Shown here piece after piece: positions 2,884-43,393 of a stretch of DNA of 49,405 nucleotides. A program made the position numbers and the translations under genes. The stretch's first letter is position 1. Each line of letters starts with the position of its first letter. Origin of the DNA: a virus; IMG/VR virus record IMGVR_UViG_3300027734_000108, positions 1 to 49,405 of that record. One strand, 5' to 3'. The notes beneath the pieces are model-generated. The model did no database searches and was not told the origin of the DNA. It was given only the letters and a program-made list of their open reading frames with translations.

Positions 2884-3536
2884 TAGTTAGTCCACTCACC
2901 TTCTTCAAGGTAACGACCACTCTCAAGAGAAATAGCGTCACTTAAAGAAGCTCTATACATAGCAAAAGCTTCGTTAGAAGCAATACCGCCATCTTCACCA
3001 CGCTCACCCATTGCACGGGCTAGAGCGTTAAATATGACTGGCTCTGAAGGAATTAATAAAGCATCTGAGTTCGCAGACAAAGGTACTTGGGGTTTAATGA
3101 TATTGAAACGAAGATTGTACACACCATCAGGAATGGGATATAAATCTACTTGTGTATCTCCGTTAGCGTTAGTACCATTAAAGTTGTAATATATTGGAGC
3201 ACCTTTTTGGGCTGATTGCAATAAAAACAATTTATTCATTTGAGCCGAAGTTTGTAACCTAAGCATATTATCACTAGTGTCGTCAATCACGTCTAGTACA
3301 CGAAAACGTTGACCTGAACCAACTAACACATAGTTAAAGACATCTGCACCAGTTACAGCAGATAATGTATCTGATAATGCATTCCAGTTATAAGCATCTT
3401 CACATTGACGCTTTGCATCATTAATGAATTTACCAATAAGCTTTGAATAGTTATTGTCAGACACAGAAGAGACCTCGTTTTCACGAAGTCTAATCAGTAC
3501 ATCATTTACTAATTGTAAGTAGGTCGGGGATGCCAT
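2883..3536 (-). CDS. Head-tail adaptor / tail tubular protein A-like (copy A)
   Basis: A 217-aa protein beginning with a helical segment (YLQLVNDVLIRLRE) followed by FINDAKRQCEDAYNWNAL, a pattern common in podovirus head-completion or tail-tube A proteins that bridge portal and tail. The C-terminal half carries a helical NALARAMGERGEDGG segment. The ATG at 3536 has an AAGGA Shine-Dalgarno and a strong sigma70-like promoter just upstream, so this gene heads its own transcript. Confidence 0.7.
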   Translation of the reverse strand: MASPTYLQLVNDVLIRLRENEVSSVSDNNYSKLIGKFINDAKRQCEDAYNWNALSDTLSAVTGADVFNYVLVGSGQRFRVLDVIDDTSDNMLRLQTSAQMNKLFLLQSAQKGAPIYYNFNGTNANGDTQVDLYPIPDGVYNLRFNIIKPQVPLSANSDALLIPSEPVIFNALARAMGERGEDGGIASNEAFAMYRASLSDAISLESGRYLEEGEWTN

Positions 3537-3545
3537 GGTGTCCTT

Positions 3546-3574
3546 ATTTTAACACATTTTATACTAAATGTCAA
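3546..3574 (-). promoter_or_regulatory. Sigma70-like late promoter (copy A)
   Basis: On the minus strand TTGACA (3569-3574) is followed by a 17-bp spacer and TAAAAT (3546-3551). It sits just ahead of the AAGGA ribosome site and ATG of the tail adaptor gene. Copy B keeps the same geometry at 41489-41517 (TTGACT, 17 bp, TAATAT) despite changes around it, which supports function. Confidence 0.8.
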
Positions 3575-3587
3575 GGTTTTTATATAC

Positions 3588-4016
3588 TTAAGAGTATGCT
3601 CTTGTACCAGCTTTATCAATAATCAAAGCTTGTTTACGTGGTGGTCTAGAAGGCATGTCAGGAACGCTTATATGCGTCCATGAGTTGAATTCTCTGATAA
3701 TCTGGTCGTAACCTATGTCAGAAGCCATGATAGCCTTCACAACCTCATCTGGAGTCATTCCGGGGACTCTGATGTCAGCAGCACAGCCAATACGATGTTG
3801 ACTAGTATCTTTAGAACCAACAGAGTCGTTAACCTGCTTAGACCTAAAGCCAGAGTTAATCATTACAGGCTTACCACCGAGTAAAGTCTTAACTTGCTCA
3901 AGCACAGCTGCTAATCTTGTTAAGTTAGCTATTTCAGTTGCATTAGGTGTATTGTCAAACTCTCTGTGAGAAGTAGCAGTGAGTTCTTCAAGAGTAAAGT
4001 GATCACTTAGATTCAT
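3588..4016 (-). CDS. Endolysin, M15-family D-Ala-D-Ala carboxypeptidase-like (copy A)
   Basis: A 142-aa peptidase M15_3-type protein. It shows the family pattern: INSGFRSKQVN, the zinc motif SQHRIGCAADI (His-x6-Asp) and a second His in WTHIS. It should cleave peptide cross-links of peptidoglycan at lysis. Its start overlaps the holin stop as ATGA, giving a coupled holin-endolysin pair. No signal peptide is visible, so export through the holin lesion is expected. Copy B differs mainly in the N-terminal third and a few C-terminal residues. Confidence 0.88.
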   Translation of the reverse strand: MNLSDHFTLEELTATSHREFDNTPNATEIANLTRLAAVLEQVKTLLGGKPVMINSGFRSKQVNDSVGSKDTSQHRIGCAADIRVPGMTPDEVVKAIMASDIGYDQIIREFNSWTHISVPDMPSRPPRKQALIIDKAGTRAYS

Positions 4017-4414
4017 TTTGCTTTATTCCTAATCTCTGTAACTTTCTCAAGTGTACGAGAGCCGAAATATGCCCCAAAAACAAGCATTCCCCAATTTCCT
4101 AGCAAAGTTACGTAACTCTCATTAGCATTCAATCCAAAGGCTGACATCATTGCAAAGACAAAGTAACCACCAAGAATTGCTATTAAAGCCATTGGTCTAA
4201 TGTTTTTAGATAGCCACGAATCAGAAGTCATATCCGCTTTCCAGCGGTCTGACACATTGTTCTGCTCATTCATATCAGCTTGTAGGTCAGCAAGTTTACC
4301 TTCCTGAGCTAACTTAGCTAGGTCTAACTGTGCTTGTGCTTTCTGTGCAGGGTCAGGAATCAGCTTATCAACAAGCTTCATTCCTACTCCAATGATGTCA
4401 TCTATTCCAAACAT
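4013..4414 (-). CDS. Holin of the 3-TM (gene-transfer-release) type (copy A)
   Basis: A 133-aa protein with an amphipathic, charged N-terminal half (about 1-70) and the family-typical segment DSWLSKNIRPMALIAILGG that begins the first membrane helix. Two more hydrophobic segments follow (near 90-120). This matches the holin-of-3TMs family. It would form inner-membrane lesions that release the M15 endolysin encoded directly downstream. Copy B differs at one or two residues. Confidence 0.85.
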   Translation of the reverse strand: MFGIDDIIGVGMKLVDKLIPDPAQKAQAQLDLAKLAQEGKLADLQADMNEQNNVSDRWKADMTSDSWLSKNIRPMALIAILGGYFVFAMMSAFGLNANESYVTLLGNWGMLVFGAYFGSRTLEKVTEIRNKAK

Positions 4415-4423
4415 TATTTACCC

Positions 4424-4876
4424 CTAAAGTTTATAACCCCAAGTACAAAACCACGCAATAACAGCAGCAGCAGCAAAACAATAGAACTGTACTCTTCTTA
4501 CAGCTTTTAAATCGTGTTGGTATTCGTCTTTGTTTTTCTGTTCCATCTTCTCTATATCTAACTTTATTCTAAGTAATGCTTCCCACTCTTTAGCACCATG
4601 CTTCTTAATAAAATCTATCTTTATCTTTGCTTCTTGGTCACTTATTTGTTTCTTGTGATTCCAATCGTTTAAAGCTTTAATGAGAGCAGTTTCTTTTCTA
4701 AACTCTGCTTCTCTAGCTGCTCTACGTCTTTCTGTTGCTTTTCGCTGTGCAACGTCTGCTGCATCTTGCTGTATAGCTTCTACTTGTTTACCTAATGCGT
4801 TACCACTCTCACGACCAGCATCAAGACTACCAGTGAGTAGCTTTACTCCTTCGTGTATTCCGTATGGATCTGGCAT
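4424..4876 (-). CDS. Coiled-coil protein with C-terminal membrane anchor (copy A)
   Basis: A 150-aa protein. Residues about 15-125 are strongly charged and helical (coiled-coil likely), followed by one hydrophobic helix near residues 130-147 and a short Lys-Leu tail. It stands between small basic proteins and the holin, so a lysis-accessory or spanin-like role is possible. However, the anchor is at the wrong end for a classical i-spanin and no signal is visible. Function not recognised. Near-identical in copy B. Confidence 0.6.
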   Translation of the reverse strand: MPDPYGIHEGVKLLTGSLDAGRESGNALGKQVEAIQQDAADVAQRKATERRRAAREAEFRKETALIKALNDWNHKKQISDQEAKIKIDFIKKHGAKEWEALLRIKLDIEKMEQKNKDEYQHDLKAVRRVQFYCFAAAAVIAWFCTWGYKL

Positions 4877-4881
4877 TCAAC

Positions 4882-5127
4882 TTAACAATCCCACTTCTTG
4901 AGTGCTAATGATTTTCTTGTTGGTCGACCTTTATCGTCCTTCATAGGACCCTTAACACCTTCCATACGAGCACAGAAGCTCTTACGTCTACCAGCAGCTT
5001 TAGGTGACTTTGCAGCTTCCTTAGCGGACACTGGTGGCTTTAATTTAGAACCAGTAGTCTTATTGTAGTAGTCTCTACCTTTTTGATTAAGACCGCCTTC
5101 AGGGTTCTGATATGCCTTCTTAACCAT
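4882..5127 (-). CDS. Small basic DUF6321-like protein (copy A)
   Basis: An 81-aa Lys/Arg-rich protein with the recurrent phage pattern GGLNQKGRDYYNKTTG, then KSPKAAGRRKSFCARM and KKWDC at the end. It matches the DUF6321 style seen in many phages and is probably DNA- or virion-associated. Function unknown. It overlaps the upstream gene as TAATG. Copy B is nearly the same. Confidence 0.65.
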   Translation of the reverse strand: MVKKAYQNPEGGLNQKGRDYYNKTTGSKLKPPVSAKEAAKSPKAAGRRKSFCARMEGVKGPMKDDKGRPTRKSLALKKWDC

Positions 5128-5279
5128 TATTTCTTCTTTGCAGTCTTAGCGGATTCTTTAAATGCTTTAGCAGTAGGAGCACCTTTGCTACCAACCTTAC
5201 GCATCTTCTCTCCAGAGCCTTCAGCTATGCGTTTCTTCTTAGCAGCGATATTGGCATACAAACCCATCTTAGTAGCCAC
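5127..5279 (-). CDS. 50-aa Lys-rich small protein, GTG start (copy A)
   Basis: Starts at GTG (5279) inside the end of the upstream gene and ends TAATG-coupled to the next. The product contains [19 protein letters not shown] and [11 protein letters not shown], a pattern seen in small phage proteins of unknown function. An in-frame ATG four codons later is an alternative start here, but copy B has AAT at that codon. The GTG is therefore the conserved start. Function unknown; a virion or DNA-binding role is possible given its charge. Confidence 0.7.
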   Translation of the reverse strand: MATKMGLYANIAAKKKRIAEGSGEKMRKVGSKGAPTAKAFKESAKTAKKK

Positions 5280-5493
5280 GCATTGCACCCATCTTCTTAG
5301 CTGGCTTAGCTTTAGGAGCTGTCATATTCTTATTAGTTTTAGGCTTCGCCATCTTAGCTTCGCTCATAGCGATAGCTACTGCTTGCTTACGAGATTTGAC
5401 TACTGGACCACCTTTACCACTATGTAATCCACCAGCTTTGTATTCAGACATTACTTTACCGATCTTAGCGGATTGTTTTTTAGTTTCTTTCAT
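5269..5493 (-). CDS. DUF6496-like small basic protein (copy A)
   Basis: A 74-aa protein with the DUF6496-type core: KVMSEYKAGGLHSG, a Gly-Pro-Val turn and KSRKQAVAIAMSEA, followed by a Lys/Ala/Pro-rich tail ending KKMGAMRGY. Function unknown. The equivalent slot in copy B (43215-43385) encodes a shorter relative that keeps the KQAIAIALS helix and the MGAKRGY ending. A GGAG Shine-Dalgarno precedes the ATG. Confidence 0.7.
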   Translation of the reverse strand: MKETKKQSAKIGKVMSEYKAGGLHSGKGGPVVKSRKQAVAIAMSEAKMAKPKTNKNMTAPKAKPAKKMGAMRGY

Positions 5494-5502
5494 GGGTTCT
5501 CC

Positions 5503-5847
5503 TTAGTAAGTATAAGATACTGCTGGTGCATTGTCTACTTCAAGCGTAATGATTACTGATGCTGTACTTGCTGCTTCTGATTGAACTCTGATCTCATCGC
5601 CTTCTTCAAGAGTAACATAAGAATTATCAAATTTAAGAAAGGACTTAGATGATATGTCATAAGATGCAACAATAACAACTTCAGTGTTAGCACTTTTATC
5701 GTACCACCAAGCACTAAAGTGTTTAGTAGACGCAGTTGAATTACTAGCAAATAATAAAGTTAAGTTCGCAACTTGCTTAGTAGGAACAACAAATAATGTT
5801 GTCTTAGTATTAGCTGTAAGGTTACGACCTACGGAATATGAACGCAT
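5503..5847 (-). CDS. Beta-rich small virion protein (copy A only)
   Basis: A 114-aa protein rich in Ser/Thr/Val with alternating hydrophobic strands and an EEGDEIRV turn. It resembles small decoration or appendage proteins found in phage structural blocks. Function is inferred from composition and position only. Copy B lacks it and carries a 105-aa beta-rich protein plus a DUF5856-like protein in the same slot, so this position accepts interchangeable cargo. Confidence 0.5.
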   Translation of the reverse strand: MRSYSVGRNLTANTKTTLFVVPTKQVANLTLLFASNSTASTKHFSAWWYDKSANTEVVIVASYDISSKSFLKFDNSYVTLEEGDEIRVQSEAASTASVIITLEVDNAPAVSYTY

Positions 5848-5853
5848 AAGACC

Positions 5854-6063
5854 TTAAGCAAAATGTTTAAAAATCCAATCCTTGAACAGAGTCAAGAATA
5901 TACCGATACCAGATGCTAAGAAAGCTACTCCACCTAAGAAGCCTTTATAACGCATCATCTCATCACGCACTGCATGAATACAGTCCAGTATCTCTTTCTG
6001 ACTTTCCTGTAGCTTTTCTACTTCAGCTTCTAACACAGCGATACGCTCTACGTTCTCACTCAT
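5854..6063 (-). CDS. XhlA-like coiled-coil/TM lysis accessory protein (copy A)
   Basis: A 69-aa protein: residues 1-40 form a charged coiled coil (VERIAVLEAEVEKLQ), followed by a single hydrophobic helix (about 45-62) and a KHFA end. This matches the haemolysin XhlA family, which cooperates with holins at the membrane. The start overlaps the XkdW-like gene as ATGA. Copy B differs by two residues although its upstream neighbours are entirely different. Confidence 0.7.
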   Translation of the reverse strand: MSENVERIAVLEAEVEKLQESQKEILDCIHAVRDEMMRYKGFLGGVAFLASGIGIFLTLFKDWIFKHFA

Positions 6064-6221
6064 GCTAATTGTTCTTCAGTTGGTCGAGATAAAGTAGGGT
6101 GTTCCCATTTAGCAATGTAATCGCCTTTGCCGTCTGAATCGTTTTGTAGTGTGATTACAGTTTCAAAATCTTTTTGTGTCAGACTAGGATATACAGTCAT
6201 TATTTTTTCGTATAAATTCAT
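6060..6221 (-). CDS. XkdW-like small tail-fibre-associated protein, copy A (1)
   Basis: A 53-aa protein. It starts with MNLYEKIMTVYPSLTQKDF and contains LQNDSDGKGDYIAKWEHP, the hallmark of XkdW-like proteins that follow phage fibre genes and are thought to assist fibre assembly. ATG at 6221 overlaps the upstream stop (TGATG); its own stop overlaps the next start (ATGA). A second member lies at 8028-8192. Confidence 0.7.
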   Translation of the reverse strand: MNLYEKIMTVYPSLTQKDFETVITLQNDSDGKGDYIAKWEHPTLSRPTEEQLA

Positions 6222-6748
6222 CATGCACCTCTTACCAAAGAACCACTAAAATTACCAAGCGTAGAATTTGTAGCTAAATAACCAGTTACGCTTGATTTCA
6301 CATACATTTCAAAATAATCAGTTGTTCCATTAGCAGAAACAACAATCGCAACTGTTAATGCTGAATACCTACTTTCTAAAGCACGACCATTAACAGAAGA
6401 ATAAATACTTCCATTTTTATATACTGCTAAAAATGTATCAGCATTTGTTGCTGAATTTGAAGCAAATGTTACAAAACAATTTAGTTGATAATAACCAGCA
6501 ACAGTTGGAGTAAAACGATAGTTAGTTGTTGGGTCGTAATTATTATTAGTATCAAAAATTTCTGTGTTGTAATTAACCTTTGTCCATGTATTTGCACTTG
6601 GTGTTTGGTCTGTTGATGCGTAAGCACTAAACGCAGGACCAGTACCAGCTACACCAGTAGCTAATTCAGCTTGAGTTATTATTGCATCAGGTAAACCACC
6701 AGCCACTAAGCCTGTGATTGTTCCATCGCCTGAAATAATAGTAGGCAT
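6221..6748 (-). CDS. C1q-like head protein of a tail appendage (copy A only)
   Basis: A 175-aa protein. After a short N-terminal Gly-rich part, residues ~45-175 form a C1q/TNF-like jelly-roll pattern: FDTNNNYD, then YRFTPTVAGYYQLNCFV, a YKNGS turn, NGTTDYFEMYV, and an LVRGA end. Such domains trimerise and bind receptors or glycans. Copy B has no equivalent here; its slot is filled by the 44552-45031 protein of a different type. This points to a change of receptor-binding tip. Confidence 0.68.
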   Translation of the reverse strand: MPTIISGDGTITGLVAGGLPDAIITQAELATGVAGTGPAFSAYASTDQTPSANTWTKVNYNTEIFDTNNNYDPTTNYRFTPTVAGYYQLNCFVTFASNSATNADTFLAVYKNGSIYSSVNGRALESRYSALTVAIVVSANGTTDYFEMYVKSSVTGYLATNSTLGNFSGSLVRGA

Positions 6749-6909
6749 TATGTATTCTCCGCAGGTAATGGAGTGTTACCTTCAGCTACCCATTTTAGGT
6801 AGGCTTGGTAGTCTGTGCTTTCTTCATTAAATTGAATTTGACCACCATCGGCAAGTCTTAAAACAGAATTAACTTTATTTGCTTCATTATTAAATATTAA
6901 TTTATACAT
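6748..6909 (-). CDS. Small fibre-associated protein with DYQAYLKWVAEGN motif (copy A)
   Basis: A 53-aa protein beginning MYKLIFNN. Its C-terminal half, TDYQAYLKWVAEGNTP, is shared with the 49-aa gene at 45031-45180 while the middle differs. It is TAA-ATG adjacent to the upstream fibre gene and TAATG-coupled to the C1q-like gene. Probably a fibre-assembly helper or linker, inferred from position. Function not established. Confidence 0.6.
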   Translation of the reverse strand: MYKLIFNNEANKVNSVLRLADGGQIQFNEESTDYQAYLKWVAEGNTPLPAENT

Positions 6910-8028
6910 TTATAGCTCCGAAGATGCAGTCCAATTACCAATTTGTCTGCCAATAACATTACCTTGACCGCTATTAACATAGGCTCTAAAGTTACCTGTG
7001 TTAACTAAATCAAAAGTTGGTGTTGCAGTTGTTACTGTTCCTGAACTATTCCCTACTTTCCATTGATTTATAGTTCCGTCATCGTTATATCCTGTTATTG
7101 TTGCTCCAGTTGCTCTTTTAGAAACAGTAAATCTAATAGTTTGCAATACATTTCCTGAACTTGATGTTCCACCAATAAAATCCCAGTTTCCAACCCCTGT
7201 TGATGCTCCTACCGCAGTATTAATATCGTAAGATTTTTCAAAATAGCGTTGGCAAAGATTTAGTTCTGTACCATATTGACGATACTCAAATCCAGTAGCA
7301 CTACTTCCTAATTCTAGTTGAACACCAGTCCATTGAATTGTTGCATTAAGTGTTGACAAAACTTGTGTTTGACCTGTTGCACCTAAATACAAAGCTGCTG
7401 CCCATGCTCCAGCAGTTCCTGAATAAGTTGAACCAGCAGCTAAACTCCAGTCAACTCGTATACCAATACCATTAGTTGTTAACCATGTTCCACTTGTATC
7501 TCCAGCAATGGTTATGGTTTCATACTCCCAAGTGTTTGCTGCTGAAATAGTATATGTATATGGGTATGATCTATTAGCAGCACTGTTTATTAAAACGCCA
7601 CCAAAAGTACCAGTTAAACTAGATTTAACCCAAAACGATAAAGTTATAGTTTTAGCATTAGCAGTGCCCCAACCCAAATCTGCAATGTTATATCCTTCTA
7701 TACTTTGTCTTACAACGCTATATTGTGTTGCCCCAATAGAAGCGTCTGCCGTAGTAATAGTAGCTTTTAAAGAATTAACAAAACTAGCAGGTGCATCTGT
7801 TACTTGCTGTAATGAAAAAATACCATCTGAACTATTATATCCAGCCCATCTATCAGTTGCAAATTGATCTGATCCTGTAACAGAAACAGCTGCACCAGCA
7901 TTTCTTTGGTCAATAACCATCGCACCATTGATAATGCGATTCTTCATAATAGAAGCGTTACCAGCACCTAGTATTCCACCGCTAGTAGAAGTCTGTATTA
8001 CATCAGCGTTTACTGTTCCGTATGGCAT
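6910..8028 (-). CDS. Tail fibre / receptor-binding protein with carbohydrate-binding-like domain (copy A)
   Basis: A 372-aa protein. Residues ~1-45 (MPYGTVNADVIQTST, NRIINGAMVIDQRNAG) are an attachment segment identical to copy B. Residues ~50-245 form a beta-sandwich-like stretch (KTITLSFWVKSSLTGTFGG, TITIAGDTSGTW, GVQLELGSSATGFEY) typical of phage fibres. The C-terminal 110 residues differ completely from copy B. The conserved base with a changed tip fits host-receptor switching. Confidence 0.72.
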   Translation of the reverse strand: MPYGTVNADVIQTSTSGGILGAGNASIMKNRIINGAMVIDQRNAGAAVSVTGSDQFATDRWAGYNSSDGIFSLQQVTDAPASFVNSLKATITTADASIGATQYSVVRQSIEGYNIADLGWGTANAKTITLSFWVKSSLTGTFGGVLINSAANRSYPYTYTISAANTWEYETITIAGDTSGTWLTTNGIGIRVDWSLAAGSTYSGTAGAWAAALYLGATGQTQVLSTLNATIQWTGVQLELGSSATGFEYRQYGTELNLCQRYFEKSYDINTAVGASTGVGNWDFIGGTSSSGNVLQTIRFTVSKRATGATITGYNDDGTINQWKVGNSSGTVTTATPTFDLVNTGNFRAYVNSGQGNVIGRQIGNWTASSEL

Positions 8029-8192
8029 TATGCTAGTTGCTCCGCAGTAGGTTTAGCTAGTGTAGGATGTTCCCATTTGGCAATATATGCACCTTGACCA
8101 TCATCTTGTAAATCAATAGTTCCAGTATCTAAACTAAAGTCATTAATAGTCAATGTTGGGTATATTGCTAAAATTTTGTCGTATAAACTCAT
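8028..8192 (-). CDS. XkdW-like small tail-fibre-associated protein, copy A (2)
   Basis: A 54-aa relative of the gene at 6060-6221: MSLYDKILAIYPTLT start, then GAYIAKWEHPTLAKPTAEQ. ATG at 8192 overlaps the C1q gene stop as ATGA, and its stop overlaps the next start as TAATG. Copy B's counterpart (46173-46340) shares the last third exactly but differs in the middle, suggesting the helper co-varies with its fibre. Confidence 0.7.
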   Translation of the reverse strand: MSLYDKILAIYPTLTINDFSLDTGTIDLQDDGQGAYIAKWEHPTLAKPTAEQLA

Positions 8193-8731
8193 GCTGCCCT
8201 CACTAAATAACCTTGAAAATATGTTGCATTAGCACCTGAATATACAAATTTATTACTTCCGCTTTCCTGTCTTACATATATTTCAAAATAATCTGTTGTT
8301 CCGTTTGCATACAATACTGCCGATACAAACCTTGACGGATAGGTAACTGCTGGAGAATTTAAATTTTCTTCTTTAAAATTCACTAAAGACCCACTTTTGT
8401 AAATCCAAGTTATTACTCTACCAACTGCTGTAACTTCTGATTGACCACTAAAAATAATTTGATAATAACCAGCTACATTAGGTGTAAAACGACTACTAGA
8501 AAAGCAATTTGCAGTATCAAAATCTTCTGTATCAAAAGTTACTTTAGTAGTAGTGCTTGTAGTTATAGCTTGATCACCGCTAGTTTTACTAGCACTAAAC
8601 GCTGGCATATTACCGCTAACCATTACTGTGCCAGCAGCAGCAGGAAGATTGATTGTATTAGTACCAGCAACGGCTGGAGCAGCTAAAGTAATAGCACCAG
8701 ATGTATCACCTGAAATTACGACTGAACTCAT
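8189..8731 (-). CDS. C1q-like appendage protein, SSVVISGDTSG N-terminus (copy A)
   Basis: A 180-aa protein. The N-terminal ~40 residues (SSVVISGDTSGAITLAAPAV) are a fibre-attachment segment shared with copy B. The rest is a C1q-like jelly-roll (FDTANCFSSSRFTP, AGYYQI, NGTTDYFEIYV, LVRAA) with different surface residues. I place the start at 8731, where ATG overlaps the upstream stop as ATGA. An upstream ATG at 8743 is possible but lies inside the previous gene's end. Confidence 0.7.
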   Translation of the reverse strand: MSSVVISGDTSGAITLAAPAVAGTNTINLPAAAGTVMVSGNMPAFSASKTSGDQAITTSTTTKVTFDTEDFDTANCFSSSRFTPNVAGYYQIIFSGQSEVTAVGRVITWIYKSGSLVNFKEENLNSPAVTYPSRFVSAVLYANGTTDYFEIYVRQESGSNKFVYSGANATYFQGYLVRAA

Positions 8732-10149
8732 AGAACCACCCATCTTTGACCTGAAGCAACTGTTACAGATTGACCACTAGCAATTGTCATAGGACCAACA
8801 CTCATGGCATTGTTTCCCGATGCTATTGAATAACTTGCAGCTACAGTTGCAGTGTTAACTATTAAACCATTGGAAGCTACTACTTGGCTTGCTGATAAAT
8901 CACCTGTGCTTGGCTTATACAAATATTTTGCATTGCTTGTATAAATCGTTGTAGGTGTGCCAGTAGTCGCTGCAGCAAATAAAGGATATAAGTTACTTGC
9001 TGTAGTTGTGTCGTTACTGAGTGCTGCACCACCAGCTACAGAAGCAGTAGATACTGCAGTGATTAAACCTTTACCATTTACAGTAATAACTGGAATGGAT
9101 GTAGTAGAACCAAAAGCACCAGTATTACTATTAACAGTTGCTAGAGTTGCATTAGTGATTGCAGTTCCAGTACTACCAGATAGAGTTAAATCTCCACCAG
9201 TAACAGAGATAGTACCTGAAACAGTACCCCAAGAAGTGTTAGTACCGTTGGTAGTTAAGAACTTACCAGAGTTACCTGTTTGACTTGGTGTGTATGAAGC
9301 TGCAGTTGTTGCTGAGTTGGCAGCGTTAGTTGCCGAAGTAGCTGCATTACTAGCTGATGTACTGGCATTAGAGGCTTGAGTTGTGGCAGTCGATGCAGAG
9401 CCACTTGCTGAGGTCGCAGAAGCTGCAGCGTTAGTCGCTGATGTACTAGCATTACTTGCTTGCGTAGTCGCTGTAGTGGCACTCGTAGAAGCGTTACCAG
9501 CCTGTGTAGTTGCTATTCCTGCTTGAGTGGTGGCTGTGCTTGCTGACGTTGCTGCGTTAGTTTCGCTGGTAGCTGCATTAGATGCAGAAGTAGAGGCGTT
9601 ACTGGCTTGAGTAGTCGCTGTAGAAGCACTTCCTGAAGCGGATGTAGCGGAGTTGCTTGCATTTGTAGCAGATGTGGAAGCAGCCGATGCACTGTTGGAA
9701 GCATTAGTTGCTGAAGTTGATGCTGCACTTGCTGAAGTGGAAGCATTAGATGCTTGAGTAGAAGCTGTAGTTGCTGAGGTACTTGCATTGGAAGCCTGTG
9801 TAGTTGCTGTTGAAGCAGAACCCGAAGCAGCAGTTGCGGAAGCTGCAGCAGCAGTTGCGGAAGTACTTGCGTTAGATGCTTGTGTAGTTGCTGTAGACGC
9901 ACTGTTAGATGCGTTAGTAGCTGATGTGCTTGCTGAAGAAGCTGAGTTGCTTGCGTTAGTTGCTGAAGTAGAAGCGTTACTTGCTGAAGTACTCGCAGCA
10001 CTGGCTGAGCCAGAAGCAGCACTAGCCGAAGCAGCAGCAGCGTCTGCATCAGCTTGGGCTTCAACAGCTAAATCACGAATTAATAGAGCTTCACTGGCTG
10101 AGTCTGCTGTAGCATCACCTGCTCCACCTGCACCACGATAGATGCTCAT
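8728..10149 (-). CDS. Long Ala/Ser/Thr-repeat tail fibre protein (copy A)
   Basis: A 473-aa protein. Residues ~1-35 (SIYRGAGGAGDATADSAS) form the attachment end. Residues ~36-285 are dozens of short Ala/Ser/Thr/Asn repeats (STSATNASNSA-like), probably a trimeric coiled or beta-fibrous shaft. Residues ~290-473 are a beta-rich head with ITVNGKGLITAVST and a terminal GQRWVVL. Copy B keeps the length exactly but shuffles repeat units, as expected for recombination between near-repeats. Its DNA produces long spurious frames, which are not genes. Confidence 0.75.
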   Translation of the reverse strand: MSIYRGAGGAGDATADSASEALLIRDLAVEAQADADAAAASASAASGSASAASTSASNASTSATNASNSASSASTSATNASNSASTATTQASNASTSATAAAASATAASGSASTATTQASNASTSATTASTQASNASTSASAASTSATNASNSASAASTSATNASNSATSASGSASTATTQASNASTSASNAATSETNAATSASTATTQAGIATTQAGNASTSATTATTQASNASTSATNAAASATSASGSASTATTQASNASTSASNAATSATNAANSATTAASYTPSQTGNSGKFLTTNGTNTSWGTVSGTISVTGGDLTLSGSTGTAITNATLATVNSNTGAFGSTTSIPVITVNGKGLITAVSTASVAGGAALSNDTTTASNLYPLFAAATTGTPTTIYTSNAKYLYKPSTGDLSASQVVASNGLIVNTATVAASYSIASGNNAMSVGPMTIASGQSVTVASGQRWVVL

Positions 10150-10316
10150 TATTCAGCCTTAGATTTAACTGCTGTTTTCTTTTCTTTGATTTCTACAACA
10201 GGTTTAACCTCTTCGAGGACCTCTACGTAGCCGGGGTGTTGACGCATAGTACGAATATCGTGCTCTAAATCAAACTCTACTGTATTATTGGTTTCCGTAC
10301 ATTTAAAAATTGCCAT
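10149..10316 (-). CDS. 55-aa conserved protein between capsid and fibre (copy A)
   Basis: ATG at 10316 follows a GGAG ribosome site, and its TAA overlaps the fibre start as TAATG. The protein contains FDLEHDIRTMRQHPGYVEV and a Lys-rich tail ending KSKAE. Copy B encodes the same protein. It resembles small phage proteins found next to capsid genes; function unknown. Confidence 0.7.
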   Translation of the reverse strand: MAIFKCTETNNTVEFDLEHDIRTMRQHPGYVEVLEEVKPVVEIKEKKTAVKSKAE

Positions 10317-17559: not shown

Positions 17560-17810
17560 TATATAATACATAATCATAATGATAAGGGGAGGACATAATC
17601 AATACATAATCAAACTCTCTCGCATTAACTTAATCAATACATAATAAGACACTCACTGTATTATCTTAATCACTACATAATCACAATGGAGTTTAGATAA
17701 TCAATATCTTAATAATAAAAGTATCTTGATAATATAATATTAACTACTCAATATATTATATTAACTTGGACAATTTATTATATTGGCATTAACTTAATCA
17801 GGACATAATA
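17560..17810. other. Iteron array with AT-rich stretch, candidate replication origin
   Basis: Four copies of a 17-bp element, consensus TTAATCANNACATAATM, start at 17595, 17630, 17666 and 17794. The first three are 35 and 36 bp apart. The copies at 17630 and 17794 extend leftward into a longer match (GCATTAAC upstream). Positions ~17700-17790 are almost only A and T and could unwind easily. The site lies between the two divergent arms. Origin function is inferred. Confidence 0.55.
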
Positions 17811-17909
17811 GGATTATCTTATTATCTTTCCAGCTCTGGGAACTTGATTGACACTCTCACAAAGGGAGGACTCTGGCACAAAACTGGCAAACCCTCCAAA
17901 ACGCATTAA

Positions 17910-19705: not shown

Positions 19706-20734
19706 ATGTGTTTATTAGTCACGCAATTAAGCAACTCTCCAGCTCTCCCAGAGGTCTGGCTTAAAAACTTTCACGCTAGTAATTCCGATGGCGTGGGCGT
19801 TATGTATGTAGAGGGTCAATCCCTTGTAATTGAAAAATGTCTCCCAAAGTCGGCTGAAGATTTTGTGAACTTTTACTACTCTCATATTGCTGGGAAAGAT
19901 TGTGCTTTCCATCTCCGCATGAGAACTCACGGAGCGACTGATCTTGAGAACTGTCACCCTTACGAAGTGCTGAACGCTAAACAGCACGGGATTGATCTCT
20001 GGCTCATGCACAACGGCATTCTTCATACCGACAATGTGAAAGACACAACCAAGAGCGACACTTGGCACTACATACGGGACTACCTCCGTCCTATGCTGGC
20101 TCACAATCCAGAGTTCTTTATCACTCCAGAATTTTCGGAGTTGATCGGCTCGCATATTGGCTCATCAAATAAGTTCGTTTTGATGGACAACCAAAACAGG
20201 CTCGTGACGATTAACGAAGACGCTGGAGTGTACTGGGGAGGTCTCTGGCTCTCGAATACTTACGCATGGACGGCAAGCCCTACAGCAACCAAGAAATACG
20301 ACTCCAGCCCAGAGCTGGCACTGGAACAAGTCAATGAGTCTCCAGTAGTCAAAACTTATCCAGTGACGGGCTACGGAACAATTCCAAGATGGCAAAACAA
20401 CTATTCCTATGATTACGAAAATCACTGGGAAAATCAGAGTTTTGGAATATCTCCCAGAGACACGGAGGACGATATTTATTCTGGGCTAGATGATTTGATG
20501 GAGGCTGGCTTACACAAGGCTGGCTCTCTTTCCATATATCAAGCTCGGTCTTTCGTCCGTACTTTCGGTCTGGACTCTTTCCTCGATATTGTGGCGATGG
20601 CGATTGACACTGAAATTGACGAGGACTGGTTTGTCAAAATTCTCTCGGACTTTAGGCTGGCACGGGAGACACTCCCATTTTTGATTGACGAGGAAAAAGC
20701 AATCGAAAAAGAAAGGGCGATGGCTTACTCATGA
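19706..20734 (+). CDS. Class II glutamine amidotransferase domain protein
   Basis: A 342-aa protein. Cys2 directly after the initiator Met is the expected N-terminal nucleophile. Further class II motifs are SDGVG (27-31), HLRMRTHG (69-76), MHNGIL (101-106), SDTW (117-120) and SSNKFVLMD (153-161). The domain ends near residue 190; the C-terminal ~150 residues are unassigned and acidic. It should release ammonia from glutamine. AAGGA precedes the ATG, 22 bases after the amidoligase stop, so both form an operon. There is no attached synthase domain, so the amidoligase is the logical partner. Confidence 0.82.
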   Translation: MCLLVTQLSNSPALPEVWLKNFHASNSDGVGVMYVEGQSLVIEKCLPKSAEDFVNFYYSHIAGKDCAFHLRMRTHGATDLENCHPYEVLNAKQHGIDLWLMHNGILHTDNVKDTTKSDTWHYIRDYLRPMLAHNPEFFITPEFSELIGSHIGSSNKFVLMDNQNRLVTINEDAGVYWGGLWLSNTYAWTASPTATKKYDSSPELALEQVNESPVVKTYPVTGYGTIPRWQNNYSYDYENHWENQSFGISPRDTEDDIYSGLDDLMEAGLHKAGSLSIYQARSFVRTFGLDSFLDIVAMAIDTEIDEDWFVKILSDFRLARETLPFLIDEEKAIEKERAMAYS

Positions 20735-20811
20735 TTGATCGAGACCCGTCCACGCTCTTGGAGCGATGGATCACAAAACTGAAAGAACTCTACATATTCT
20801 GGTTTTACTAA
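20731..20811 (+). CDS. 26-aa micro-ORF coupled to the amidotransferase
   Basis: ATG overlaps the upstream stop as ATGA. The peptide is amphipathic with an aromatic C-terminus (LKELYIFWFY). It ends 15 bases before the terminator hairpin. The coupling is suggestive, but so short a frame could be chance. No family recognised. Confidence 0.3.
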   Translation: MIDRDPSTLLERWITKLKELYIFWFY

Positions 20812-20825
20812 TCTCCCAGAACTTG

Positions 20826-20856
20826 AAAGCCCTCCAGAATATCGGAGGGTTTTTTT
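20826..20856 (+). terminator. Rho-independent terminator of the amidoligase operon
   Basis: CCCTCC (20830-20835) pairs with GGAGGG (20844-20849) across an 8-base loop, followed by seven or more T. Flanking A/T bases extend the stem. Confidence 0.85.
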
Positions 20857-20895
20857 ATTGCCTGAATGTCTGGGGACTCTCCCAGAGGCTCAGGG

Positions 20896-20986
20896 CTGGC
20901 TCTGGTACTGGAGCTGGCTCTGGTACTGGCTCGGTCTCCAGTGCTGGCTCTGGCTCTGATACTGGCTCTGGAGCTGGTTTGCTGGT
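20896..20986. repeat. CTGGNN hexamer tandem repeat
   Basis: Twelve CTGG words fall in 20881-21000, mostly in exact 6-bp phase, including an 18-bp unit of three hexamers repeated twice. It lies after the terminator. A long plus frame across it is Gly/Ser/Ala-repeat and lacks a ribosome site, so I treat it as non-coding. Role unknown. Confidence 0.7.
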
Positions 20987-21014
20987 ATCAGGACACGCTC
21001 CAGCAACCCTCCAG

Positions 21015-21034
21015 AACGCTCTCTGAGCTGTTTT
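21015..21034. repeat. Direct repeat, right copy
   Basis: Identical to 17910-17929 over 20 bases and preceded by the same ACCCTCC context. It marks the right edge of the compositional island. Confidence 0.85.
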
Positions 21035-21133
21035 CCTGATCGTGGTGATACCTATACCCCAGAAAAGGGTAAAACGCCTCCAAAGCCCTAAAAATGCCCT
21101 TAAAATCGATTGTCATTTTAAAACAACAATTTT

Positions 21134-21180
21134 TTGAAATATTTTGAAATATAACCCCTATACTGTTGTAAAAAAACAAC
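21134..21180 (+). promoter_or_regulatory. Early rightward promoter with operator-like palindrome (site 3)
   Basis: TTGAAA (21134-21139) and TATACT (21159-21164) are separated by 19 bp, long but usable. The 16-bp palindrome GTTGTAAAAAAACAAC (21165-21180) follows the -10 directly and would cover the start point. It faces the small plus-strand genes. Confidence 0.5.
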
Positions 21181-21201
21181 ACTTATAAAGACCCTATATG
21201 G

Positions 21202-21322
21202 CTATGTGTGAATGTGTGCTATAAAGTTACTATGTGGCTATGTAGCTATGTGGAAATGTGTAATATACTACACAAATTCCTACTATGTAGCTATGTGACT
21301 ATGTAAGGGTATGTCCCTATGT
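21202..21322. repeat. CTATGT repeats in phased octamer blocks
   Basis: CTATGT starts at 21202, 21230, 21238, 21246, 21283, 21291, 21299 and 21317. Two blocks of three copies have an exact 8-bp step, 53 bp apart. More copies lie at 21836, 21847 and 21967. The block fills the leader between the early promoter and the first small gene. It could be a protein-binding array or a second origin element. Confidence 0.7.
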
Positions 21323-21387
21323 ACAAATGTGTAAAAAGGACTAAATTGGAGTTGTAGTATCTATTTATATCAATCAAGGAGCATTAA

Positions 21388-21576
21388 ATGAAATTTACTA
21401 TTACTGTTGCAAGAACTGTATTCTTCTACGAAACGTTTGAAATAGAAGCTGACAATCGTGAAGATGCACAGAAAGGTGCTTTAGCTGAAATGTCATACTT
21501 AACTAACGACAAACTAAGCATTGCTGGGCAAGAAGAATTTGTTAACGAAGTAGACTGTGAAGAAGAGGAAGAATAA
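21388..21576 (+). CDS. 62-aa acidic early protein
   Basis: ATG with AAGGAG upstream. The sequence (MKFTITVARTVFFYETFEIEADNREDA) has alternating strands then a helix and an all-Glu tail, like small phage proteins with a ferredoxin-type fold. It is the first gene of the early rightward run. Function unknown; an acidic DNA-mimic role is possible. Confidence 0.6.
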   Translation: MKFTITVARTVFFYETFEIEADNREDAQKGALAEMSYLTNDKLSIAGQEEFVNEVDCEEEEE

Positions 21577-21577
21577 A

Positions 21578-21823
21578 ATGAAATGCACTATTTGTAATAA
21601 CACACTGAACGACTACGAGGCAACTCGTAAGCACCTTATCACTTTTGAGTATCTTGATATTTGCCAAGAGTGCTATGTGGCTGCGGAATTAGACATCATT
21701 CACTCTGATCGTAAGGATTTGTTGCATGAATCCGACACTGGTGGCTATGCTGACCAAGACGATCTTGCTGATTATGTAAACAACGGCTGTGATGACTTTG
21801 ATGACATCTATACAGATCGTTAG
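21578..21823 (+). CDS. 81-aa protein with two CxxC knuckles
   Basis: Starts at ATG 21578 just after the previous stop. CTIC near the N-terminus and CQEC about 28 residues later form a likely Zn site. The C-terminal half is very acidic (DQDDLADYVNNGCDDFDDI). A small Zn-finger regulator or host-takeover protein is possible; function not recognised. Confidence 0.6.
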   Translation: MKCTICNNTLNDYEATRKHLITFEYLDICQECYVAAELDIIHSDRKDLLHESDTGGYADQDDLADYVNNGCDDFDDIYTDR

Positions 21824-22013
21824 AGATGTCAAAGTCTATGTTGTTACTATGTTGTAATATTTATTATTAAATACATTGTATATACATCGTATATCTAAAT
21901 AGATTGAGGGTATCATGGAATTGTCTATTTGTCAATGTATTAGTGTTGTAAAAATACAACATACATCTATGTCATTATGTGGTATTGTGTAGTCTTAACT
22001 TATGGAGAAAATT
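21824..22013. promoter_or_regulatory. Intergenic leader with operator-like palindrome (site 4)
   Basis: The 16-bp site GTTGTAAAAATACAAC (21945-21960), an extended inverted repeat, lies in an AT-rich gap with three CTATGT words. No clear -35/-10 pair was found, so the exact promoter is open. Confidence 0.5.
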
Positions 22014-22166
22014 ATGCCAGATGAATATTTAGAAGCAAACTATCATTTTACTTTGTCAGCTATGATGGACTTGATAGAGAAGTATGGATACAAGAAAGTC
22101 CTAGAAGACCTTGATGTTATGGTCGCTGATAGGATAGAGGAGGCATTGCTATGCGAGACTGTCTAA
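22014..22166 (+). CDS. 50-aa acidic helical protein
   Basis: ATG after TATGGAGAAAATT (GGAG site). Helical and acidic with MDLIEKYGYKKVLEDLD. It ends inside the next gene, which starts out of frame at 22151. Function unknown. Confidence 0.6.
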   Translation: MPDEYLEANYHFTLSAMMDLIEKYGYKKVLEDLDVMVADRIEEALLCETV

Positions 22167-22330
22167 CTATATTATGCGTAGGCGTTCTTGTCGCTGGCTT
22201 TATTGCTAGTATTTGGTACTATACCTATCCGCACTCGGTTGTCTATGCTTGCTCGGATAAAGAAAACAACCCTCCTGATGTACGCAAGCTGTGTGAAAGG
22301 TTAACAAGAGGACAATGGTGGAGTCAATGA
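22151..22330 (+). CDS. 59-aa membrane protein upstream of primase
   Basis: ATG at 22151 follows AGGAGG. Residues ~4-24 are a hydrophobic helix (TILCVGVLVAGFIASIW) and the remainder is polar with two Cys about 14 residues apart and an Arg/Trp-rich end. The short positive N-terminus predicts the tail outside the cytoplasm. Function unknown. Confidence 0.6.
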   Translation: MRDCLTILCVGVLVAGFIASIWYYTYPHSVVYACSDKENNPPDVRKLCERLTRGQWWSQ

Positions 22331-23922
22331 GCGATAGCAGAGCACTTAGGCGTATGGCTTGCCCTAGCTGTGGCTCAAGCGATGGCAACACGCTATACGA
22401 TGATGGACATGCCTATTGCTATGTGTGTGAAACTTACACTCATGCTAATGGTGTGATTGAAACTAAAACTGTAAAGAAAACAATGAATAAGGATCTAAAC
22501 TTTTATGACTCAGCTAATAGTGGTGCTATTAATGATCGCAATATTTCTGCACCTGTATGTTTAAAATATGGTGTTCGTCAGGACTCCGTAGGGACTAAGC
22601 ATTATTACCCTTACCACGATGAAGAAGGTCTATTGACCTCTGTTAAAACTAGAGATGTACAGAATAAACAATTCTTCTTGGCTGGTGAGTTTAGTAAAGC
22701 TACTTTGTTTGGGCAGAGTCTATTCCCTCGTGGGGGTCGCTATTTGACCATCTGTGAGGGCGAATTAGACGCTCTATCAGCCTTTCAGATGATGGGTGCT
22801 AAGTACCCAGTGGTGTCGGTACGCAACGGTGCTGCAGCAGCTCTGAAGGACTGTAAAGCACAGTTTGAATACATTGATTCTTTTGAGAACATTGTGATTG
22901 CTTTTGACTCTGATGAGGTAGGGCAGAAAGCAGCCGTGTCGGTAGCAGAGTTGTTTGGTGCTAAAGCTAAGCTGATGAAGATGCGTACCACGCTCAAGGA
23001 TTCATCAGATTATCTAAAGATCAATGCCAACAAAGAGTTTGTTGAAGATTGGTGGAGAGCTGAGAACTATGTGCCTGATGGCATCATCGAAGGCTCTACC
23101 CTATGGGAGATTGTATCGAGTCCGATGGAGAAAGCTGAAGTAAGTTATCCATATGAGGGGCTGAACAAGCTAACCTACGGAATCCGTAAGGGTGAGCTGG
23201 TGATGGTCACTGCTGGCTCTGGTCTTGGTAAGTCTCAATTCTTGCGTGAGATTGTGTGGCATATCCTTAATAACACTACTGACAATATTGGTATGTTGTT
23301 CTTAGAGGAAGGTGTACGCAAGACTGCTCGTAGCCTTATGTCTCTGGCTGTGGATAAGCCTATTCATTTACCTGATGTGGAAGTTTCTGATGCGGAGTTA
23401 AAAAATGCTTTTGATGTCACTCTTGGTACTAATCGGTTGTATCTGTTTGACCATTTCGGTAGTACTTCTCTTGATAATATTGTCAATAGAGTTCGATATA
23501 TGGCTAAAGGACTCAACTGTGGTTTTGTTGTGCTTGACCACATATCTATTATCGTTAGTGGGGGCGATGTGGGCGATGAACGCAAAGCTCTTGATGCTAT
23601 CATGACACGCTTGCGGATGTTAGTACAGGAGACAGGTATCAGTTTGATCTGTGTCAGTCACCTAAAGCGTCCTAGTGATCGTGGACACGAAGAAGGAGCT
23701 GCAACTTCGTTAGCCCAGCTTAGGGGTTCTGGAGCTATTGCACAACTATCCGATATTGTGATAGGATTAGAGCGTAACGGACAGGCTGTGGATATGGTTG
23801 AACGCAATACCACCCATGTGCGTGTGTTAAAGAATAGGTTTAGTGGTTATACTGGCGGTGCAAGTGATTTGCTGTACAATCCTAGTACTGGTCGAATGAT
23901 GGAAATTAAGGATACATTATGA
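22315..23922 (+). CDS. Primase-helicase, T7 gp4-like
   Basis: A 535-aa protein. N-terminal Zn finger with CPSC (16-19) and CYVC (35-38). TOPRIM primase core with CEGELDALSA (Glu148) and FDSDEVG (Asp198, Asp200). C-terminal DnaB/RecA-like helicase with Walker A GSGLGKS (301-307), Walker B VVLDHIS and the LAQLRGSGAIAQLSD motif. It primes lagging-strand synthesis and unwinds the fork for the family A polymerase. Start may be 22315 or, ATGA-coupled to the previous gene, 22327. Confidence 0.93.
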   Translation: MVESMSDSRALRRMACPSCGSSDGNTLYDDGHAYCYVCETYTHANGVIETKTVKKTMNKDLNFYDSANSGAINDRNISAPVCLKYGVRQDSVGTKHYYPYHDEEGLLTSVKTRDVQNKQFFLAGEFSKATLFGQSLFPRGGRYLTICEGELDALSAFQMMGAKYPVVSVRNGAAAALKDCKAQFEYIDSFENIVIAFDSDEVGQKAAVSVAELFGAKAKLMKMRTTLKDSSDYLKINANKEFVEDWWRAENYVPDGIIEGSTLWEIVSSPMEKAEVSYPYEGLNKLTYGIRKGELVMVTAGSGLGKSQFLREIVWHILNNTTDNIGMLFLEEGVRKTARSLMSLAVDKPIHLPDVEVSDAELKNAFDVTLGTNRLYLFDHFGSTSLDNIVNRVRYMAKGLNCGFVVLDHISIIVSGGDVGDERKALDAIMTRLRMLVQETGISLICVSHLKRPSDRGHEEGAATSLAQLRGSGAIAQLSDIVIGLERNGQAVDMVERNTTHVRVLKNRFSGYTGGASDLLYNPSTGRMMEIKDTL

Positions 23923-37572: not shown

Positions 37573-37932
37573 TTAAGTTCCTTCTTTCATAATTAATACC
37601 TCATCTACTTTATCTGGATTAGTTTCTTCTGTTGCATGAATACAAAACCATACTGCGTCTTGTAACGCTGTAATGGAATGGTGTACCCCTTTGTGTATAG
37701 TAATACAAGCAGGAGCAGTGTACTTTATAGCTTTTGCATCTGTTTTAACAATTACTTCACCTGCAGCTAAAATGCTTAAATGGTCGTACTCGTGAGCATG
37801 ACTTAAAGCAAAATAACCTTTAGGCAACATCATTTGTTTAGCGTACACTCCGCTAGAGAAATGGTGCTGTGTTCCTAAATCTACTTCAAAAGTACCTTGT
37901 AGTTCTTTAAACTGTTCAGATACGGTGTGCAT
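37573..37932 (-). CDS. Cupin-domain protein
   Basis: A 119-aa single-domain cupin. HAHEYDHLSILAAGEV carries the first metal-binding motif (two His and an acid) and VHHSITALQDA the second His. I start it at ATG 37932 (AAGGA upstream) rather than at the longer frame. It overlaps the oxygenase gene by 17 bases, so the two are coupled. It might bind a metal or sugar or act with the oxygenase. Confidence 0.75.
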   Translation of the reverse strand: MHTVSEQFKELQGTFEVDLGTQHHFSSGVYAKQMMLPKGYFALSHAHEYDHLSILAAGEVIVKTDAKAIKYTAPACITIHKGVHHSITALQDAVWFCIHATEETNPDKVDEVLIMKEGT

Positions 37933-38521
37933 TTTTATCCTTAAACATCTCTGTACGAATACAAACAATCATTGCTATTCTGTCTGTATCACTTTCGTTA
38001 TCTACCCAATGAGGATTAGAGTTATCAAACCACCAAGCTTGTCCTAATTCAGGATCTATAACACCATCATCAAATCCAAATATAGAACCTTTAGAGTTCA
38101 TAATCGGTACATAAAACTTATCGTAATACTGGGCATGCCACCCTGCATCTGTGTGTCTAGCTATGTGTCCGTTAGCAGGTAACTTAGTAATTAAAACACC
38201 ACCTAAACGCTCACCATCAACAACACGCATTAAATCAAAAACTACTTTCTTAACACTTGGTATCTTATCTATTACTGGATACCAGATTGAATCATGTTCT
38301 GCTTCAAACCCTTCTAAACTACCTTTAGCTTCAAAAGGTCTTACATCGTTGTATCTTGCCCAGATGTCTTGCATTTGAGCATGTGGTGAGTTAGGAAAAG
38401 TTCTTCTATACTCATACTTATCAAACTTATCGTAATTATCTAAAAGTTCTTTCTGTAAAGGAAGAACATCTAGATTGCTACAAACTAATTCATGACTTGT
38501 AATCAAGCAGTACGCTTCCAC
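37916..38521 (-). CDS. 2OG-Fe(II) oxygenase, Asp/Asn beta-hydroxylase-like (copy B, complete)
   Basis: A 201-aa complete version of the cut gene at position 1. His123-x-Asp125 (RHTDAGWH), distal His171 (NPHWVD) and Arg181 fit the double-stranded beta-helix oxygenases of the Asp/Asn hydroxylase type. GTG start at 38521 lies inside the collar gene; TTG 38506 (L6), with GGAAG upstream and TTGA overlap, is a plausible alternative. The cupin gene follows. A role in modifying a virion or host protein is possible but untested. Confidence 0.8.
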   Translation of the reverse strand: MEAYCLITSHELVCSNLDVLPLQKELLDNYDKFDKYEYRRTFPNSPHAQMQDIWARYNDVRPFEAKGSLEGFEAEHDSIWYPVIDKIPSVKKVVFDLMRVVDGERLGGVLITKLPANGHIARHTDAGWHAQYYDKFYVPIMNSKGSIFGFDDGVIDPELGQAWWFDNSNPHWVDNESDTDRIAMIVCIRTEMFKDKNAHRI

Positions 38522-39216
38522 ATTTTAACAACAATAAACGGCTGTACGTTAGCGTTAGTTCCACTAGAACCTGAACTAGCTGTTGTAAGAGTATGAGTAT
38601 GTGATGCGTCTAAAGTTACACCGCCACCATCACCAGAATCATTCTGTATAGGAGTAATCCCAACTGTATTTCCTGTTGTTTTTGTAAAGACACCAGATGC
38701 TGTTCCTCCGCCAGTTCCAAATGATTCAGCAATACCAACAATTGCACCAGTAATGGAAGTACTATTTGTTGTTGCTGTATGTGTATGTGATACAGTAATA
38801 GCGTCTTTAGAACCACCAGTTTCTTCTAGTGTATCAAACAACGCATCAGCAGAATCAAGACCAACAATAACTTTACCTGCACCAAAAGCTGTCCATGTAC
38901 CAAAGCCAAGCAATGTGGCGGGGTTTGTAGAGACAGAAGCATTAATATAAACAGAACCTACTGGATAGATTAACGCTAAGGCTGCAGTCACAAAAGCAGT
39001 GGTGGCTATTTGAGTAGTGCTTGTACCAGCAGACGCTGTAGGGGCAGTCGGAGTACCAAGCAATGCAGGACTAGATATATCTGCCTTAGATGCAATAGCT
39101 GACGAGATAGCTGTAAACTCAGTATCTAGTTCAGTGCCTTTAACAATCTTACCTGAGTTACCAGTAGGAAGAGTATCCTTAGTGGTAAAATTAGTTGACT
39201 TTGAATAATCAGACAT
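38503..39216 (-). CDS. Tail fibre / collar-domain protein (copy B)
   Basis: A 237-aa counterpart of 584-1273. Identical layout to ~residue 150; thereafter the region between SHTHTATT and the terminal VQPFIVVKMWKR is different and 8 residues longer. The swap is confined to the likely receptor-facing part. Confidence 0.78.
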   Translation of the reverse strand: MSDYSKSTNFTTKDTLPTGNSGKIVKGTELDTEFTAISSAIASKADISSPALLGTPTAPTASAGTSTTQIATTAFVTAALALIYPVGSVYINASVSTNPATLLGFGTWTAFGAGKVIVGLDSADALFDTLEETGGSKDAITVSHTHTATTNSTSITGAIVGIAESFGTGGGTASGVFTKTTGNTVGITPIQNDSGDGGGVTLDASHTHTLTTASSGSSGTNANVQPFIVVKMWKRTA

Positions 39217-41479: not shown

Positions 41480-41488
41480 GGTGTCCTT

Positions 41489-41517
41489 ATATTAACACAG
41501 TTTTACTAAAAAGTCAA
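41489..41517 (-). promoter_or_regulatory. Sigma70-like late promoter (copy B)
   Basis: TTGACT (41512-41517), 17-bp spacer, TAATAT (41489-41494) on the minus strand, matching the copy A promoter at 3546-3574. Confidence 0.78.
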
Positions 41518-41530
41518 GATTTTTATCTAT

Positions 41531-42357: not shown

Positions 42358-42366
42358 TATTTACCC

Positions 42367-42819: not shown

Positions 42820-42824
42820 TCAAC

Positions 42825-43070
42825 TTAGCAATCCCACTTCTTGAGTGCTAAGGACTTACGAGTAGGTCGACCTTTATCGTCCTTCATAGGACCCTTAACA
42901 CCTTCCATACGAGCACAGAAGCTCTTACGTCTACCTGCAGCTTTAGGAGACTTTGCAGCTTCCTTGGCGGACACTGGTGGTTTTAGCTTAGATCCAGTAG
43001 TCTTATTGTAAAAGTCTCTACCTTTTTGATTAAGTCCGCCATTAGGGTTCTGATAAACTTTCTTAACCAT
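42825..43070 (-). CDS. Small basic DUF6321-like protein (copy B)
   Basis: An 81-aa counterpart of 4882-5127; three visible substitutions in the first 20 residues. Confidence 0.65.
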   Translation of the reverse strand: MVKKVYQNPNGGLNQKGRDFYNKTTGSKLKPPVSAKEAAKSPKAAGRRKSFCARMEGVKGPMKDDKGRPTRKSLALKKWDC

Positions 43071-43385: not shown

Positions 43386-43393
43386 ATTAGTCC

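Follow-up and report, generated by a model that had tools for sequence, protein, structure and literature searches.

Phased octamer modules in the early-operon leader of a Sio/T7-like podovirus as possible lineage-specific regulator sites

Introduction

The met boxes of MetJ are tandem ribbon-helix-helix operators. In excerpts of two articles, operators of this class are described as contiguous short repeats whose iteron number differs between promoters (PMC5016525, PMC9499535). For the omega protein of plasmid pSM19035, the excerpted section 6 of the first article describes heptad repeats bound side by side by a protein that winds around unbent DNA, with sites that overlap promoters at three loci and an affinity that is affected by iteron number (PMC5016525). 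Stoperators, as presented in excerpts of PMC9283540 and PMC6550527, are asymmetric sites that keep a constant orientation relative to transcription and are found in promoter regions and intergenic spaces; their reversal abolishes repression, and their consensus differs between subclusters. Cobavirus/Siovirus phages such as SIO1 and ICBM1 are RNA-polymerase-less podoviruses of the T7 supergroup whose gene modules are separated by an ORF-free region, according to an excerpt of PMC6775973 that describes no repeat array in SIO1 or ICBM1. Among titles and opening lines of abstracts on tandem operators, stoperators and Siovirus, none describes the array reported here.

We analysed an array of CTATGT octamers in a 49,405-base virus record from IMG/VR (hereafter the window, meaning this whole stretch of DNA). 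Like the stoperators of Cluster A mycobacteriophages, which are sites for the L5 repressor, the array sites are asymmetric, lie in one orientation and have a lineage-specific sequence; stoperators, however, are 13-mers distributed across a temperate genome and have a known repressor, whereas the present sites form an 8-bp tandem cluster. Short direct repeats that adjoin one another at a fixed step are a hallmark of tandem ribbon-helix-helix operators and are found here as in the omega sites, but the array differs in its 8-bp step and its distinct third octamer. Omega, moreover, has a role in plasmid partition, and the window proteins scanned include none recognised as a ribbon-helix-helix protein. 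The window phage resembles SIO1 and ICBM1 in being apparently of the RNA-polymerase-less type and in having an ORF-poor region between gene modules, but the SIO1 primase is only 45% identical to its own.

Results and Discussion

The window phage is a Sio/T7-like podovirus. Its plus strand carries, between 18.2 and 32.8 kb, an amidoligase-like gene and a gene weakly similar to class-II glutamine amidotransferases (below the Pfam cut-off), followed by genes for a primase-helicase, a DNA polymerase, a gp2.5-like protein, an exonuclease and ribonucleotide reductase; the terminase, portal, capsid and tail genes are on the minus strand. Among the listed matches in named phages, the primase is closest to those of Pelagibacter phages (50.9% identity), with Roseobacter/Siovirus and Synechococcus phages at about 45% among the matches listed. 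A PHROGs scan gave no T7-type RNA polymerase match among the window proteins covered, and PF00940 (single-subunit RNA polymerase) matched nothing in the window record, nor in the control genomes.

CTATGT occurs on the plus strand at 21202, 21230, 21238, 21246, 21283, 21291, 21299 and 21317. The initial annotation had reported eight copies in about 120 bases, with triplets at 8-bp steps, and we recovered all of them. Because the hexamer is at chance level over the whole window (36 found, 35.1 expected), the array is a local concentration of CTATGT, and the signal lies in its clustering and not in the total. The leader (21081-21384) holds 8 copies, among them 4 pairs spaced exactly 8 bp apart; 5000 dinucleotide shuffles of the same stretch came nowhere near these numbers, with no more than 3 copies and a single pair, and no other hexamer in the window has 8 copies inside 130 nt. 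We confirm that the array is real and far above chance. Near-copies continue the 8-bp phase (GAATGTGT at 21210, AAATGTGT at 21254 and 21325, GTATGTCC at 21309), bringing the first leader to 12 octamers plus CTATATGG at 21194. Three additional copies had been noted at 21836-21972, and these divide: the copy at 21967 belongs to the pattern, whereas those at 21836 and 21847, which are 11 bp apart, do not. Three relatives (L006, L007 and L008) have a single CTATGT at the place that aligns with 21836/21847. One more copy, at 21673, is within an ORF.

By lining up the octamers of the window phage and its relatives, we derived a repeat unit of three octamers and 24 nt, CTATRTNN-CTATGTGN-NRRTGTGT, which always lies on the plus strand. 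Positions 2, 3, 4, 6, 11-14 and 20-22 are identical in all 18 modules compared, a set selected by motif, for which a set of orthologous modules is the fairer test. Modules occupy the untranslated leader of the early operon, and a single one lies in a second leader. On the plus strand of the first leader, module 1 (21194-21217; CTATATGG CTATGTGT GAATGTGT) scores 33.9 bits with the PSSM and has 13 of 13 core positions invariant over four lineages. Block 2 (21230-21261) reads CTATGTGG CTATGTAG CTATGTGG AAATGTGT, and block 3 (21283-21306; CTATGTAG CTATGTGA CTATGTAA) is made of three CTATGT octamers without an RRTGTGT octamer. Module 4 (21309-21332; GTATGTCC CTATGTAC AAATGTGT), also with 13 of 13 core positions invariant, falls within the conserved 3' end of the leader and aligns with the sister-clade leader. 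The first early ORF (21388-21576, plus strand, 62 aa) begins 55 bp downstream of the array. The second leader holds a single module in 8-bp phase (21967-21990, plus strand; CTATGTCA TTATGTGG TATTGTGT), with an ORF of 50 aa (22014-22166, plus strand) 23 bp behind it; this module is conserved in L004-L009, with 12 of 13 core positions invariant, and reads CTATGTCC-CTATGTGT-TAATGTGT in L009, with variants in the others.

A GTTGT-N6-ACAAC dyad precedes the modules in both leaders. In the first leader it lies at 21165-21180 and follows a possible -10 hexamer, TATACT (together 21159-21180, plus strand); it is present in six aligned leaders (as GTGGT in L008). In the second leader it reads GTTGTAAAAATACAAC (21945-21960, plus strand) and ends 6 bp upstream of the module. 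A third dyad is at 17430, and a stricter form of the dyad pattern was found in 7 of 11 records of the phage family. A consensus promoter scan gave five promoter-like sites, none of them at 21159-21180 and none before or in the array; we infer only that a promoter lies ahead of it. The array was rejected as a series of -10 boxes, with none of those five sites inside it, and T7-type promoters at the GTTGT dyads were set aside as a resemblance only, with no polymerase found (the control being uninformative). More generally, the 16-bp dyad (window 17430, 21165 and 21945) recurs in early regions of the family, sometimes in multiple copies, and is often followed by ACTTTATAG or a variant of it.

The upstream amidoligase/GATase-like unit is closed by a terminator-like hairpin, CCCTCC-N8-GGAGGG with a T-run (20830-20856, plus strand), which was read by eye and is not among the entries of a pattern scan. 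Between this hairpin and the leader, an 18-bp repeat, GCTGGCTCTGGTACTGGC, occupies 20895-20971. At 20731-20811 lies a tiny 26-aa ORF whose product ends in FWFY, and similar ORFs stand ahead of the terminator-like hairpin in L006, L008 and L009.

To place the array phylogenetically, we used a primase search that returned 135 relatives, the best 80 of which were kept as loci; the seven closest are L003-L009, and L004 begins too late to cover the first leader and informs on the second leader only. Absence or shuffling of the array in close relatives had been named in advance as the outcome that would refute it. The array is kept in all six close relatives that cover the first leader (L003 and L005-L009), always in sense and with the 8-bp phase intact; leader ends and octamer phase are constant among them, and module number varies. 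In the primase tree, the eight octamer rows (L004 by its second leader only) form one side of a branch with support of 100/100. All array-carrying phages are metagenomic. Their loci share ancestry and most are fragments, so locus counts are not independent events; as independent units we count four octamer lineages and, for the gene copy described below, three motif lineages, and the argument from orientation rests on about three independent places.

With one member per lineage (window, L006, L008 and L009) and core positions picked after the motif was seen, three orthologous modules have 38 of 39 core positions invariant versus 17 of 33 other positions. Phase-8 pairs in the corresponding stretches number 9, 7, 10 and 8, with the L008 and L009 stretches including the gene copy of the octamers, and 5000 shuffles of each never gave more than 2. 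Across the window and the 80 loci, every module match scoring over 20 bits is in sense, a single orientation like that of stoperators; these matches lie in the two leaders and, in L008 and L009, in the first codons of one gene, a distribution confined to early leaders and this gene and unlike the genome-wide spread of stoperators. The exact module pattern occurs four times in the window, four times in the L009 contig and five times in the L008 contig, in every case in one of the two leaders or at the L008/L009 gene start, and is absent from five related contigs that lack the array.

Sister phages have the same leader frame around a different repeat. The upstream amidoligase/GATase-like cassette is also found in L037, L048, L056, L057 and L059, and its GATase-like part in L045, L050 and L051. 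Behind the cassette, the leaders of L045, L048, L057 and L059 align at both ends with four octamer leaders, sharing CCTTAAAAT at the 5' end and, at the 3' end, AGGGTNTRTCC...ATGT through GT(T/A)GTA to the ribosome-binding site. The leader middle holds a direct repeat of GACCTNAATGGT at 12-bp steps in L057 and L059, and a direct repeat of GTAACCTCAATGGTA at 41 and 37 bp in L048. A pattern covering both sister repeats gave 39 matches in 9 of the 10 sequences scanned. All are in sense, with 31 placed in the leader and the other 8 in a single secreted-protein gene, and the window together with six further members (250,280 bases) has no match. L037 has a leader of the 12-bp-repeat type although its primase is on another branch, so recombination may be moving leaders. 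In L050 (936-1018), an array alternates GACCTCAATGGT-type with CTTAAGCGGT-type units, the GACCTCAATGGT-type units being 22 to 24 bp apart.

The gene that carries repeat copies encodes a small protein with a putative signal peptide, followed by a short part with a C-x2-C motif. We found 20 copies of this gene by pattern, with no clear family; the same patterns did not find it in the window. In three motif lineages, the signal-peptide codons contain the phage's own repeat. Those of L008 and L009 contain the octamer block CTATGTCG CTATGTGC CTATGTGT GAGTGTG; those of L037, L051, L056, L057, L059 and L060 contain TGACCTCAATGGTG; those of L045 and L048 contain GTAACCACAATGGTG; and those of L046 and L047 contain the dyad GTTGTTTTTATACAAC. 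We measured the longest exact match of each gene start to the rest of its own locus, with a mark of 14 nt. At least 14 nt was reached by 5 of the 20 genes (23 nt in L047, 15 in L008 and 14 each in L051, L056 and L057, the last three being 14-mers of near relatives that we count as one lineage). Among control ORF starts in the same loci, 0 of 380 reached 14 nt and 24 of 380 reached 12 nt. The L047 gene matches a dyad lying 1.6 kb upstream and not a leader array. Of the 15 genes under the mark, L009 has a best match of 13 nt, in another gene, and its block still scores as a module; in L037, L045, L046, L048, L059 and L060, substitutions separate the leader copy from the gene copy; and the remaining eight have no such copy. 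Between L008 and L009, differences fall at 0 of 31 block positions and at 17 of 113 others (Fisher p = 0.024); third positions alone, at 0 of 11 versus 8 of 37, are not decisive.

The match between leader repeat and signal-peptide codons could be explained by copying instead of binding. Such exchange forms part of a neutral account in which slippage or recombination between short repeats expanded the array, and the array of L007, which lost 29 bp between octamers with the phase intact, has changed as repeat recombination would change it. Searches outside the clade bear on the same question. In IMG/VR, 25 contigs have three exact CTATGT octamers, 5 of them in this clade; the 20 others have CTATGTNN runs, many of them plain 8-bp microsatellites as slippage might leave, and only two match any of 12 window proteins, at 25% and 31% identity. 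None of these 20, however, has the three-octamer order, which recurs with its distinct third octamer at several places in the octamer phages, and fixed cores with diverged filler bases are the reverse of recent slippage. We regard neutral expansion as quite improbable. The module pattern itself occurs in 11 IMG/VR contigs, 6 of them in this clade and 5 outside it with no match to any of the 12 window proteins; no module array was found beyond this clade. A bacterial genome collection gave 4 single module matches, where about 7 are expected by our own estimate. One 52-kb IMG/VR contig (L094) has five CTATGT in two runs at about 105-150 on the minus strand, and no match to the 12 window proteins.

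The position of the modules also bears on whether the repeats act in the transcript, as evenly spaced UAUGU sites in a single-stranded leader through which an RNA-binding protein would control translation or antitermination of the early operon. All modules are in sense, and each lies either downstream of the candidate promoter and ahead of the first start codon or within the opening codons of a gene; the second-leader module ends 23 nt before a start codon, as such a role would have it. Module-to-start distances are uneven, however, being 55 nt in the first leader, 23 nt in the second and, in L008, from 11 nt inside the gene, a spread that is awkward for a single translational mechanism. An RNA role had been offered in the initial annotation, with folding of the leader as its check, and folding gave nothing conserved: the window leader has z = -1.84, with 6 of 200 shuffles folding at least as well. 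A consensus fold of six leaders has a two-sided change in only 1 of 19 pairs, and the three Rfam matches in 20700-22400 are weak and all far below the gathering score. We consider action in the transcript unlikely. A long-range ACCCTA/TAGGGT hairpin around the array was discarded, since its stem is shortened in the window and in L009 and shows no compensating change. Minimal uORFs (ATG-stop within octamers) were rejected as well, since filler bases vary among relatives and stops are not kept, as was a leader-encoded peptide, of which the 8-bp units and the 29-bp deletion of L007 break any frame.

The leader adjoins the replication genes and has an AT-rich flank, as might be expected if this AT-rich stretch (21100-21165) and the short repeats behind it were an origin with iterons for a phage initiator. 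Our scans found no initiator protein, and a second site with a single module before another gene would be unexpected at an origin, as would an in-gene copy. The minimum of the cumulative GC skew is near 17 kb and not at the array, although local skew follows gene direction. An origin seems to us highly improbable.

We tentatively favour, short of real confidence, the reading that a trans-acting regulator of early expression recognises the array as a set of directional sites specific to each lineage. Direction-dependent regulator sites fit the conservation of the cores, the fixed phase, the single orientation, the position at the operon head and the turnover of repeats between lineages. The octamer modules would be asymmetric sites at the head of the early operon, on which a regulator encoded by phage or host probably sits side by side on adjacent octamers at 8-bp steps; this protein would act on the DNA and not on the transcript and may tune or halt transcription into the early genes, and the single-module site before the 22014 ORF may be a weaker version of the same control. 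Side-by-side binding on rotating faces, as first proposed for this array, is still the best idea of the geometry and has a precedent in the omega heptad repeats in an excerpt of PMC5016525; the binding itself we infer. Sites and regulator would change together between lineages, which would explain why the frame is shared with sister phages but filled with another repeat. It is possible, if doubtful, that in these virulent podoviruses whole arrays are swapped inside the conserved leader in step with the regulator, and that the same site in the signal-peptide codons co-controls the secreted-protein gene.

Counting against regulator sites are the failure to find a regulator protein or a consensus promoter and the 15 of 20 secreted-protein genes under the 14-nt mark. 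No repressor, helix-turn-helix, ribbon-helix-helix protein or integrase was recognised among the window proteins scanned; in the search for DNA-binding proteins, PHROGs was used for 30 window-protein scans and Pfam for 20, two overlapping sets that cover part of the small ORFs. In a presence/absence profile with five array-less contigs, the amidoligase/GATase cassette and small ORFs track the array and no known DNA-binding family does; the cassette occurs without octamers too. A zinc-ribbon ORF at 21578 was dismissed as a candidate DNA binder, with a weak AlphaFold2 model (mean pLDDT 64.9, pTM 0.41) and chance-level PDB sequence matches (best E 0.071). PADLOC defence models matched none of six proteins. 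The genes identified do not reveal how phages of this apparently RNA-polymerase-less type time their early expression, and the fixed frame, repeat turnover and gene copy point to a regulator-site pair under fast co-evolution; if this is true, it would be an expression-control system outside temperate immunity.

Two further observations concern the genome as a whole. An AT-rich, ORF-poor stretch with repeated ACATAATCA units (17563-17828) lies between two gene modules and is a candidate for the genome ends, by analogy with the ORF-free region of cobaviruses. Parts of the last 11 kb of the window repeat parts of the first 11 kb (1-10150 versus 37920-48310) at 75-97% identity and an offset of about 38 kb, and the contig looks like one 38-kb genome continuing into a second, diverged strain.
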